Shown in pieces: positions 55,577 through 63,391 of a stretch of 64,000 nt of DNA (position 1 is its first letter; each line of letters begins with the position of its first letter). Made by a program: the position numbers and the translations under genes. Source of the stretch: Candidatus Vecturithrix granuli. GTDB lineage: Bacteria; Moduliflexota; Moduliflexia; Moduliflexales; Moduliflexaceae. The notes below the pieces were generated by a model. That model saw only the letters and a list, made by a program, of their open reading frames with translations. It was not told the DNA's origin and searched no databases. Where the stretch lies: assembly GCA_000739535.1 (NCBI GenBank), contig DF820471.1, positions 113,973 to 177,972 on the forward strand. Direction: 5' to 3'.

Positions 55577-56836
55577 TCATGGAGTAGTAAACACCGTTGT
55601 ATCTTGTTCATCACGTCGGATAATCAGGACTTCTTCAAGCTTTGAGAAATCAACGCTTGGCGTGACTTCGATATCTTGAAACAACCCGTAATCTTGCTTT
55701 CCCACTTTTGAGACTGTTCCGACCAGCAAGCCTTTGGGGAAAATCCCTCCTAATCCTGAAGAGATGACTGTTTCCTCTTCTTCAGCGTGTTTCAGGATAC
55801 TTTGTTGGTATTTTTGAGCAGTTTCCTGACCTATTGTTGTTTCCAGGGCCTTCAGAAAGTCAGTTTTGGTTGAAAAATCCTGATCTTTGAGCTGGCGTAG
55901 CGTCATAAGCACATCAGTCTGGGCATATTGAACAATAAAAGGAGTGTACCACTCTGCTTGTTCTTTGCCAAGAATATCTTCTAATGCTTTGATAAACGCT
56001 TTGTGATGTGGGAAGGATTGATCTTTCAATTCTTCCAGAATAACGAGAATATCCTCTGGAATCGCATTCTGCCGTAATTGCTCAAATACCTGATCTGTCA
56101 GGCGAAACCCGGGGATCTCTTCATTAAGTAATTGGGCCAGCGATTGATCTGTCAGCCGATAAATCCCTCCTTCTCGAATGAGCGCCCGACGATTGACATA
56201 TTTCATTGTATAGGCGTCTTTTCTCCCCAGTCCCCCCACAATCCCTTGATCACGTGTTCGCTGAATTAACGCCGCCACATTACAGTTTGGATCGGTCATT
56301 AACAAAATTTTCGAGGAGCGTTTTGCGACACTCGCCGTCACCCCAACAATACCATCCAGCGTAATAACCGGCCAGCTTTCTTGCACGCCATCATCAGATC
56401 CGCGATTGACCAGAATCGTGTGCGAGTGGTTTGAAGCATCGATGCCGATGACTCTCGCTAAAATGGTAGAAAATTGACGCGTTTCAACTAAATCAACCGT
56501 CCCTTTCAGGCGTTCGTAGGCTAAGGCATCTTCAATATAACGATTCTTCTCAGCGCGTAATTGCTGAATTTCCTCACGAAGACGTTGATTCTCCTCACTC
56601 AACTGAATCAGAGCAATATAGCCATCCCAGATGCGTTGAAACTGCATGGTGACTGCCGTCACCATGCTTTGAAACGGCTCAAGGATGAGTAACATGCCTC
56701 GTTCCATAATATTGGATGGTTTAATCAGCGTTTCCGGCGACTGGTGAAGCGACAATAATGTCATTGAGATAAACAAAAATAAGAGAAATAAAGAAATATG
56801 ACGATAGCGAGTCAATAAATTCAACATCTTCACCAC
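55577..56836 (-). CDS. mreC: Rod shape-determining protein MreC with duplicated helical insert
   Basis: MreC (419 residues; family members are usually about 280-350) has a short cytosolic start, one membrane helix (about 13-30), a periplasmic coiled coil (about 78-110; EENQRLREEIQQLRAEKNRY) and the beta domain (ARVIGIDASNHSHTILVNRG to DIEVTPSVDFSKLEEVLII). Within the beta domain, residues about 218-353 are extra. They contain RLTDQ at 227 and 245 in two 18-residue units, then two 46-residue units (262-307 and 308-353), each with an ELKDQ-type LKDQ, KALE and a Gln/Tyr-rich helix. The insert precedes the conserved VISSGLGGIFPKGLLVGTV. The insert is probably a periplasmic helical protrusion. It starts 7 bases after the mreB stop. 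Confidence 0.92.
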   Translation of the reverse strand: MVKMLNLLTRYRHISLFLLFLFISMTLLSLHQSPETLIKPSNIMERGMLLILEPFQSMVTAVTMQFQRIWDGYIALIQLSEENQRLREEIQQLRAEKNRYIEDALAYERLKGTVDLVETRQFSTILARVIGIDASNHSHTILVNRGSDDGVQESWPVITLDGIVGVTASVAKRSSKILLMTDPNCNVAALIQRTRDQGIVGGLGRKDAYTMKYVNRRALIREGGIYRLTDQSLAQLLNEEIPGFRLTDQVFEQLRQNAIPEDILVILEELKDQSFPHHKAFIKALEDILGKEQAEWYTPFIVQYAQTDVLMTLRQLKDQDFSTKTDFLKALETTIGQETAQKYQQSILKHAEEEETVISSGLGGIFPKGLLVGTVSKVGKQDYGLFQDIEVTPSVDFSKLEEVLIIRRDEQDTTVFTTP

Positions 56837-60592: not shown

Positions 60593-61051
60593 TTATATTT
60601 CTTTTGTCCGCTTCACAATATCAGCCCGGATAATATTACCTAATTCTTTTGGATCGAGCAAAACGCCAGTCTTCTTTTTCAAATCCTGAAAATTCATCTG
60701 CTTTAATTCTTTCACAGCTTGCTCAAAAATATAGGAGCGCGTCAAATCAACGCGATTCATACTCTGATAAAACGGACGTTTATCATTGAGAAAGTTAAAT
60801 TTTTCAGGATCTCGTTCCTTATATTTATAATAATTCCCTGCTTGATTGAAAATCTCTTTGTACATGATCATCACCATATACCAGATTAATTTTTCTTCCT
60901 CTGTCAATCGCTCGGCAATAGGTCGCGTGGCCGCATCAAAATGGATTGATCGTTCAAGAAAAGGCTGTGTGATGACTTCTTGCTTTTTTAACACGCGATA
61001 AATAAGTGCAAAGACCGTGTAGATCGAATCTTTTTTAATTTCCTCACTCAT
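60593..61051 (-). CDS. Hypothetical protein beside acyl-CoA synthetase
   Basis: This is a 152-residue, mostly helical soluble protein starting MSEEIKKDSIYTVFALIYRV and containing EEEKLIWYMVMIMYKEIFNQ and YKYKERDPEKFNFLNDKRPF, with a charged end (IIRADIVKRTKEI). I do not recognise it. It follows the acyl-CoA synthetase-Roadblock gene by 30 bases on the same strand, so a partner role is plausible. ATG 61051 is preferred to an upstream TTG at 61069; GAGAG lies about 8 bases before it. Confidence 0.75.
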   Translation of the reverse strand: MSEEIKKDSIYTVFALIYRVLKKQEVITQPFLERSIHFDAATRPIAERLTEEEKLIWYMVMIMYKEIFNQAGNYYKYKERDPEKFNFLNDKRPFYQSMNRVDLTRSYIFEQAVKELKQMNFQDLKKKTGVLLDPKELGNIIRADIVKRTKEI

Positions 61052-61081
61052 AACATCAGGCTCTCTCAATTTCAGCAGCCT

Positions 61082-63391
61082 TTAAAACAGTTCTGCCTCA
61101 ATTTGAGGGATAACTTTATTGAAATTCAGCCGCACTAATCCCCAATTTAACTCTTTTGCCTCAACAATAAGCGTTACCAGATATTGATCGCGGATAAGTT
61201 TGACGACAAATCCGTATTTATCAGCGATAAAATATGCTTCGAGCGGACTTCCGGCATCGAGGCTCTTGGCAGCTTTGCTGAACGCACCAGTGACAGCAGC
61301 TAATTCGGCATCCGCAAGGACTGTTGGGAAATCAGGATCCGTTGTAAATGAAGTAATGCCAATGCCATCTATCCCGGCGATACTGCCAGCAATACCGCCT
61401 GGAATTTCCATAACAAGTTCACGCAAACGATCGTCAAACCCACCTGCTCCTCCGGTCTCCGAAGGTACGACTTTGGGAGGACGTACAACCGGAGGTTCAA
61501 CCGAAACCTTTCCGCCGCCGCCTTCAAATTGACGCATCTGTGCTTCCAAACTCACGCCGGCTGCCGGAGAAGTTCCGCCGCCGCCTTCGAGGAGGTGCAT
61601 CTGATCTTCCAAACTCATGCCGGCTGCTGAAGGAGCTCCGCCGCTGCCTTCGAGGAGGCGCATCTGATCTTCCAAACTCATACCGCTTACCGGAGGAGTG
61701 CCACCGCCGCTTTCGAGTTGACGCATCTGCTCTTCCAAACTCATGCCGCCTGCCGGAGGAGCCACTATACTCGGCTCTTCAACTACCTCCTCGAGGGTTT
61801 CTAATTCCGATTCATCAACCGCCAGTTCATCTCCTTCTTCCCCTTCATCTTCAAACTCTTCCTCTTCTTCAGCCGGAAGCCCGGCAGCGATTCTTCGGAG
61901 AACACGCTTTAAAATTTTCCCTGTAACATTTTTCGGAATCTCATCAATCACCTCAATCGAACGAGGAACTTTATATGCGGCTAAATATTTCCGGCAATAT
62001 GAGAGGATATCCTTTTCATCAATGCTTGCTCCTAGTTTCGGAACAATATAGGCTTTGGGGACTTCTCCTCGGATAGCATCTTCCATACCAATCACGCCCG
62101 CATCTTGAACAGCCGGATGTTGTGTGAGGACATTCTCGATTTCTTTCGGATAAACATTCTCGCCGCCGACAATAATCATATCCTTTTTCCGGTCAGCGAT
62201 AAACACAAAGTCATCCTCGTCCATATACCCTAAATCGCCAGTATGAAACCAGCCGCCTCGGAAGGCTTCTTTGTTCGCCTCCTCATCTTTATAATACCCC
62301 ATCATCACATTGGGGCCCTGGACGACGATTTCACCAACGGTATTCCGAGGAACCTCTTTGTTATTCATGTCCACGACTTTCCATTTCACGCGATCCGCTG
62401 CTTTACCGATCGAGCCGATTTTTCGATTACTGAGCGGATTCACTGACACTAAGGGCGAACACTCTGACAACCCATAGCCTTCATAAATTTTACACGGAAA
62501 TCTCGATTCAAATTTTTCGGCAATAGCGGTAGTTAACGGAGCGCCGCCGCAATATCCTAAGCGAAGATGGCTGACATCGTAACGTTCCAGATTGGGCATA
62601 TTGGCCAGTACCGCAAACATGGTCGGCACTCCGACAAAGATCGTGACTTTCCAATCGCTAAAACCTTTTAATACGGGTTGAGGCAGGAAATTTTCCAGCA
62701 ACACATTGGTCATCCCGGCGAAAATCGGCACCATCATACAGGCGGTCATCGCCAGCGTATGAAACATGGGAAGGCAATTTAAGGGAACATCCTTTCGACT
62801 GGCTTCAACTGCTTTGCCGATGGCGACCGTACTGCTTAAAATGTTGACATGGGAAAGCATCGCACCTCTTGGCAAACCGGTCGTTCCGGAAGAATAGTAG
62901 ATCGCAGCCATATCACTTAACTTCACGGCTGGCGTTAAATTTGAATCTTCATAAGGTGCGATTAATGTTGAAAAAGGAAGCAGATTTTCATCTTCCGGGT
63001 CATCATCTAAGGTAATAATATATTGAACTTGAGGAAGCTGAGGGCGAAGCATGAGTAAAAGTTCATCATACGGAGGAGCCGTGACAATCACTTTGGCATC
63101 AGAATTATTAATCACATAAGTTAATTCGCGGCCGCTTAACAGCGAGTTAAACGCGACAAATGCGGCTCCGGCTTTTAATGCAGCAAACACGCCAGTGACA
63201 AATTCCGGGCAATTGTTCATTAAAACGCCAACTTTGTCGTTCTGACCAACCCCTAGCGCATTCAATGCTCTTCCAAGTTTATTGGCCTCCGCATTGAGAT
63301 CTTTATAGTTCACCCGGCGATCTCGAAAAACAATCGCTGTCTTATTGGGGTATTTTGTCGCACTCCGTTCTAACATTTCCCCAAGAGTCAT
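61082..63391 (-). CDS. Acyl-CoA synthetase (AMP-forming) fused to repeat linker and Roadblock/LC7-like domain
   Basis: The product has 769 residues. An ANL-family long-chain acyl-CoA synthetase (about 1-505) shows the ATP loop YYSSGTTGLPRGAM, YGLSECSPLVSVN, the hinge HTGDLGYMDEDDF and the catalytic C-terminal VTGKILKRVLRR. It is followed by an acidic linker (EEEEEFEDEGEEGDELAVDE) and four 21-residue repeats (549-632) of the type MSLEDQMRLLEG plus a Gly/Pro turn. The last 118 residues (652-769) form a Roadblock/LC7-type longin fold (LVMEIPGGIAGSIAGIDGIG, AYFIADKYGFVVKLIRDQYL), normally a GTPase-regulating scaffold. Such a fusion is not standard. The enzyme probably activates fatty acids while the tail docks to a partner. 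Confidence 0.9.
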   Translation of the reverse strand: MTLGEMLERSATKYPNKTAIVFRDRRVNYKDLNAEANKLGRALNALGVGQNDKVGVLMNNCPEFVTGVFAALKAGAAFVAFNSLLSGRELTYVINNSDAKVIVTAPPYDELLLMLRPQLPQVQYIITLDDDPEDENLLPFSTLIAPYEDSNLTPAVKLSDMAAIYYSSGTTGLPRGAMLSHVNILSSTVAIGKAVEASRKDVPLNCLPMFHTLAMTACMMVPIFAGMTNVLLENFLPQPVLKGFSDWKVTIFVGVPTMFAVLANMPNLERYDVSHLRLGYCGGAPLTTAIAEKFESRFPCKIYEGYGLSECSPLVSVNPLSNRKIGSIGKAADRVKWKVVDMNNKEVPRNTVGEIVVQGPNVMMGYYKDEEANKEAFRGGWFHTGDLGYMDEDDFVFIADRKKDMIIVGGENVYPKEIENVLTQHPAVQDAGVIGMEDAIRGEVPKAYIVPKLGASIDEKDILSYCRKYLAAYKVPRSIEVIDEIPKNVTGKILKRVLRRIAAGLPAEEEEEFEDEGEEGDELAVDESELETLEEVVEEPSIVAPPAGGMSLEEQMRQLESGGGTPPVSGMSLEDQMRLLEGSGGAPSAAGMSLEDQMHLLEGGGGTSPAAGVSLEAQMRQFEGGGGKVSVEPPVVRPPKVVPSETGGAGGFDDRLRELVMEIPGGIAGSIAGIDGIGITSFTTDPDFPTVLADAELAAVTGAFSKAAKSLDAGSPLEAYFIADKYGFVVKLIRDQYLVTLIVEAKELNWGLVRLNFNKVIPQIEAELF
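61496..61747 (-). repeat. Four 63-base coding repeats in the acyl-CoA synthetase gene
   Basis: These bases encode four copies of a 21-residue unit: a short helix MSLEEQMRQLE followed by a glycine-rich and proline-containing spacer. The copies differ at a few residues, and the last begins VSLEAQMRQFE. The regular 63-base period suggests growth by tandem duplication. The helix could be a repeated docking peptide. Confidence 0.85.

Follow-up and report, generated by a model that had tools for sequence, protein, structure and literature searches.

Bacterial cell polarity involves a small adaptor, MglC, whose type of docking domain serves gliding bacteria in marking their poles. In M. xanthus, MglC is a homodimer (PMC7949163) with two partner-binding surfaces: residues F25-D26-I28 (FDI) contact MglB, and residues K104-R106-R110 (KRR) contact RomR (PMC7949163, PMC10329633). 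MglC pulled down MglB and RomR, but not MglA, and a published AlphaFold-Multimer model places D26 and I28 of MglC against R115 of MglB (PMC10329633). More broadly, small GTPases are often regulated by Roadblock proteins (PMC10329633). Filaments of the phylum KSB3 (Moduliflexota) glide in sugar gradients by a mechanism that is unexplained (PMC4312070), and neither MglA nor roadblock occurs in the main text of that report. Here, we describe a KSB3 gene that encodes an acyl-CoA synthetase carrying a predicted MglC-like domain at its C terminus.

The window, meaning the whole 64,000-nucleotide stretch of the Candidatus Vecturithrix granuli genome under analysis, encodes the fusion, its parts, and its downstream neighbor as follows:

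61082..63391, minus strand: acyl-CoA synthetase/Roadblock fusion gene, an ORF with an ATG start encoding 769 aa, with orthologues in three other genomes of the order
62291..63373, minus strand: AMP-binding (adenylation) domain, residues 7-367 (Pfam PF00501, 3.9e-97; NCBIfam PRK06187)
61916..62143, minus strand: AMP-binding_C domain, residues 417-492, with the catalytic-type K492 (Pfam PF13193, 1.7e-21; motif A10)
61757..61879, minus strand: acidic linker, residues 505-545, in which 20 of 41 residues are D or E; acidic in 4/4 orthologues
61496..61747, minus strand: four 21-residue repeats with the core SLEEQMRQLE, residues 549-632
61085..61438, minus strand: predicted MglC-type Roadblock domain, residues 652-769, 118 residues (phmmer and profile matches to PDB 7ct3; homologues in other phyla)
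60593..61069, minus strand: P0002, downstream of the fusion, a helical protein of 158 aa and no known family, with a probable start at residue 7 (ATG)

Residues 1-500 are predicted to constitute a complete FadD-type acyl-CoA synthetase with intact active-site motifs. Specifically, the best NCBIfam model for residues 1-501 is the long-chain-fatty-acid--CoA ligase PRK06187 (NF004837; 529 bits, 9e-159, cut-off 476), and motifs A3, A5, A7, A8, and A10, the last including K492, are all present. In the repeat units, 79 of 126 residue pairs are identical, whereas 20,000 shuffles gave 12.5 on average and never more than 28. The original prediction, which gave no strand, had described the protein as a synthetase, an acidic linker, four 21-residue repeats, and a Roadblock-like tail of about 118 residues, and the Pfam, motif, and shuffle analyses and the PDB search bear out that layout.

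Four KSB3 genomes were sampled. The genome of the window and G001 belong to one family (f1), while G002 and G003 belong to another (f2). Each of the four carries exactly one fused copy as a single ORF. The orthologue of G001 has 796 aa, and those of G002 and G003 each have 777 aa when counted from MTLGEM, a conserved start (in G002 the mechanical ORF runs to 784 aa). Across the other three genomes, identity to the window copy is 79%, 61%, and 60% for the synthetase and 64%, 45%, and 44% for the tail. The repeat core is likewise retained across orthologues, while its copy number and sequence drift: the window protein has four units, that of G001 has two, and G002 and G003 have two of a related core (LASAMSQLE and LAALMAQLE, of the form LxxxMxxLE). 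In the G002-G003 comparison, the synthetase has a dN/dS of 0.02 and the tail one of 0.05, which indicates purifying selection on the tail; the linker value is 0.27. The four fused tails cluster together in a phylogenetic tree (support 86/84), as would be expected had the fusion arisen once. Alongside the fusion, each KSB3 genome has unfused acyl-CoA synthetase paralogues, encoded by separate genes and at most 44% identical. In these genomes the tail profile matches only the fusion, and a separate MglC-like gene was not found in any of the four. A scan of the genome contigs with a single sequence gave no match; an alignment-based scan yielded two of the KSB3 orthologues.

We also considered, and rejected, the idea that the repeats are a docking motif common to other proteins of the genome. 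A search of the window's own genome for the DNA pattern of LE[ED]QM returned only three copies in the fusion gene, a single copy in a permease-like membrane protein unrelated to it, and a near-match (FEDQM) that could not be assigned to an ORF. The repeat motif therefore looks private to the fusion gene.

Homology identifies the tail as a putative Roadblock-type domain that is MglC-like. A phmmer search of the PDB with the tail finds M. xanthus MglC (7ct3; 2.6e-6), the match covering 115 of the 118 residues (3-117). The original prediction had proposed a profile search with residues 652-769, and a profile built from all four KSB3 tails matches MglC at 1.1e-11. The same profile matches the Roadblock proteins 7f8m and 9jue more weakly (2e-3 and 5e-3), MglB is not among its PDB matches at E<=1, and MglB of the window's own genome is barely reached (5e-3). 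The full-length match to MglC and the absence of MglB from the PDB matches thus argue for an MglC-like rather than an MglB-like tail, and MglB-type identity was rejected. Neither Pfam nor NCBIfam has a model that detects the last 118 residues of the window copy, Robl_LC7 included; on the tails of G003 and G002, Pfam Robl_LC7 matches weakly (8.3e-4 and 3.7e-3; 21.4 and 19.3 bits, below the cut-off of 23). The AF2 model of the tail, built from three sequences, has a pLDDT of 40, too low for a fold search, and its order of elements agrees with beta-beta-alpha-beta-beta-beta-alpha. The earlier assignment of a Roadblock/LC7-like fold is supported by homology to MglC, with no other fold matched. Between the regulator and scaffold roles that had been put forward, the homology favors a docking or scaffold paralogue akin to MglC over an MglB-type GTPase-activating protein, since in the PDB the profile finds MglC and not MglB. 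The suggested connection to polarity gains support from the same homology, as MglC is itself one of the Roadblock proteins in the polarity module of M. xanthus. Positional control of lipid metabolism, which had also been suggested, would be a possible consequence, with lipid activation perhaps placed at chosen, possibly polar, sites.

How unusual is this arrangement? A rarity search covered about 800 genomes: 385 drawn from across the domain, 10 from the phylum to which the closest stand-alone relative belongs, and 397 from one other phylum. The tail profile matches dozens of non-KSB3 genomes, always in open frames of at most 362 aa. Frames near 800 aa that contain the tail occur in this sample only in the four KSB3 genomes, and none of the roughly 800 genomes searched joins the tail to a synthetase outside KSB3. 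The possibility had been raised that the fusion is a common annotated architecture; it is seen here only in KSB3, and a literature search found no description of a synthetase-Roadblock fusion. We conclude that this is a new lineage-specific architecture made from known domains and confined to KSB3 in this sample.

The stand-alone MglC-like proteins (nearest, f131 in G269 and G132; also in G104, G067, G338, and G208) share the domain with the tail, with scores against the KSB3 profile as high as 98 bits, and the nearest of them share its GxDGIGI and DAE motifs. Unlike the fusion, they are encoded by open frames of about 118-362 aa with no synthetase attached. Their closest representatives (f131; L075:7721-8098 and L078:8041-8514) have their genes within an operon resembling that of a V/A-type ATPase, where DnaJ-like and TPR genes are neighbors. 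In many phyla, stand-alone MglC-like genes reside in operons of the pilMNOPQ-aro(-acc) type (L019, L020, L076, L077, L080, L090, L091). We take the neighbors, named by sequence recognition, to be pilMNOPQ, aroC-aroK-aroB-TPR, and accB-accC. The pilMNOPQ neighborhoods suggest a broad link between the MglC family and type IV pili.

The two binding surfaces of MglC have fared differently in the fusions. On the MglB-facing side, alignment shows the exposed residues D26 and I28, and the turn around them, to be invariant in 4/4 fused tails. D26 and I28 are near-universal across the Roadblock subfamily, stand-alone relatives included, so their retention is compatible with MglB binding and is not proof of it. 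The position of F25 holds I, Y, E, and E in the four tails and varies in stand-alone homologues as well. On the RomR-facing side, all four fusions retain R106 and carry L in place of K104 and N in place of R110. With two of the three basic residues replaced, the fusions have probably lost the RomR-type contact, and with it that half of what MglC does.

Potential partners exist in KSB3. The original prediction had called for a search for an MglA-like GTPase, and the genome encodes a clear MglA-MglB pair together with further MglA-like GTPases. Specifically, MglB (170 aa; L016:10065-10577; 6.6e-23 to M. xanthus MglB) adjoins MglA (194 aa), and the same locus encodes a second, weak Roadblock protein. 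By alignment, this MglB conserves the counterparts of R115 and K120, two residues of the surface that binds MglC (PMC10329633). The cluster is kept in G003, where MglA is 95% identical. Its conserved extent (L016:7992-11700 in the window's genome, L122:8379-11845 in G003) comprises genes for a DUF4388-type protein, a membrane protein, MglB, MglA, and the second Roadblock protein, and it is a candidate part of the KSB3 gliding system. Each KSB3 genome encodes two to four MglA-family GTPases, several of them on long acidic linkers. Some of these, in G001, G003, and the window's genome (L132, L133, L135), combine linkers of 300-400 residues with a C-terminal helical domain that is HEPN-like by eye.

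The explanation we favor, at a little under an even chance, is that the synthetase is dimerized and docked through its MglC-type domain onto the Roadblock/MglA module. Domain identity, intact motifs, a single conserved fusion with selection on its tail, the co-occurrence of MglA and MglB, and the retention of D26 and I28 are the observations behind it; dimerization, docking, and spatial or GTP-dependent control are what we infer from them. The notion is that, in a single event predating the divergence of the sampled KSB3 lineages, a FadD-family synthetase gained at its C terminus a domain that came from the stand-alone Roadblock family of the MglC type. Tethered by a flexible acidic linker that includes short helical repeats, the tail would dimerize the synthetase and would dock it to further Roadblock proteins belonging to the MglA/MglB module, in the way that MglC sits between MglB and RomR. 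The synthesis of acyl-CoA would then follow the assembly of the module in space or in time, taking place at a GTPase-marked site. A bolder version, which we regard as unlikely, couples fatty-acid activation in KSB3 to the MglA/MglB polarity system as such: the fused domain would recruit acyl-CoA synthesis to the GTPase-marked site, the RomR contact having been dropped in favor of enzyme cargo. If docking is true, it would represent a direct wiring of a bacterial Ras-like polarity module to lipid activation, in a small and poorly known phylum of gliding filaments.

Docking onto MglB encounters a difficulty in G001, a genome that is 93% complete. The searches there turned up another Roadblock protein of ~124 aa and none that is MglB-like, which weakens a strict MglB-docking model. 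Moreover, the fusion gene is not near mglAB in any genome looked at. Both observations fit an alternative that we likewise consider unlikely, namely that the tail is an oligomerization or stability domain only, a Roadblock dimer pairing two synthetases with no link to MglA or MglB. MglC is homodimeric (PMC7949163), like Roadblock proteins generally, and the fusions have not retained F25 or the basic patch that binds RomR. Against a dimer alone speak the invariance of the exposed residues D26 and I28 and of the turn around them, and the fact that FadD-type enzymes commonly dimerize without such a tail, which would make the added domain redundant.

The neighbor P0002 had been described as a helical protein of no known family and as a possible partner of the fusion. 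The description holds: the AF2 model is all-helical (mean pLDDT 72), no Pfam family scores over the cut-off, and the model has no fold match in the PDB at E<=0.001. As a general partner, P0002 was rejected. It adjoins the fusion in G001 too (59-60% identity) and was not found in G002 or G003, both of which carry the fusion. Conserved in only one of the two families, P0002 is thus not an obligatory partner, although a role in assisting the fusion is possible within f1. An mreBCD cluster lies beside the fusion, along with P0002, in both genomes of that family. In both f2 genomes, mrdAB (PBP2/RodA) lies 4-7 kb from the fusion, the other gene neighbors differ from those of f1, and mreBCD was not found in the stretches read. 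The presence of one or the other cluster within several kb of the fusion in each genome may reflect function or inherited gene order. These surroundings bear on another reading, somewhat less likely again than a dimer alone, in which the docking target of the tail and repeats is a different protein, e.g., P0002 or the cell-elongation machinery (mreBCD in f1, mrdAB in f2), and the synthetase feeds membrane growth. That the repeat core is essentially limited to the fusion protein in its own genome also speaks for this reading; retention of the fusion where P0002 was not found, and the otherwise different f2 neighborhoods, speak against it. Least probable, and in our judgment improbable, is that the tail senses GTPase state, with an MglA-family GTPase binding it directly and switching the synthetase on or off: KSB3 genomes do hold two to four such GTPases, several on acidic linkers of their own, and Roadblock proteins often regulate small GTPases, but MglA, unlike MglB and RomR, was not pulled down by M. 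xanthus MglC (PMC10329633).

A separate observation concerns an in-frame insertion module of ~65 residues, present in some 20 proteins, mostly of unrelated families, of the two f1 genomes (loci L023-L044). Its consensus is about [FY]xLTxxSLxxLxxxxxPxxILxxLxxLxxxxFxxxxxFxxAIxxxIGxExxxxYxxxILxxA. Hosts include MreC, ABC permeases, a signal peptidase, an Rce1-like protease, an MCE-like protein, and the synthetase fusion of G001. Two instances are as follows:

55577-56836 of the window, minus strand: MreC gene, with two tandem units of the module at residues 225-355
L038 358-2748: synthetase fusion of G001, with the module at the hinge, residues about 382-448

The module was not found in G002 or G003 at E<=0.01, and no Pfam family covers it in the hosts scanned. 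The synthetase of the window itself lacks the module, which thus looks like a spreading coding element comparable to the Rickettsia palindromic elements.

Set beside known proteins, the fusion resembles each in part. Like a PRK06187-type, FadD-like ligase (NF004837), it has all catalytic motifs within residues 1-501; unlike that ligase, which has no linker, repeats, or Roadblock tail, it continues beyond the end of the match at ~residue 500. MglB of the same genome (L016:10065-10577) shares with the tail a Roadblock fold, predicted for the tail by homology, but it matches Pfam Robl_LC7 and PDB MglB, whereas the tail does not reach the cut-off of the former and does not match the latter. The closest counterpart is M. 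xanthus MglC (PDB 7ct3/7cy1), which matches the tail over its full length of ~118 aa and shares with it the G-x-D-G-I turn, D26, I28, and R106. F25, K104, and R110 of MglC are not shared, and MglC stands alone, whereas here its type of domain is permanently joined to a metabolic enzyme.
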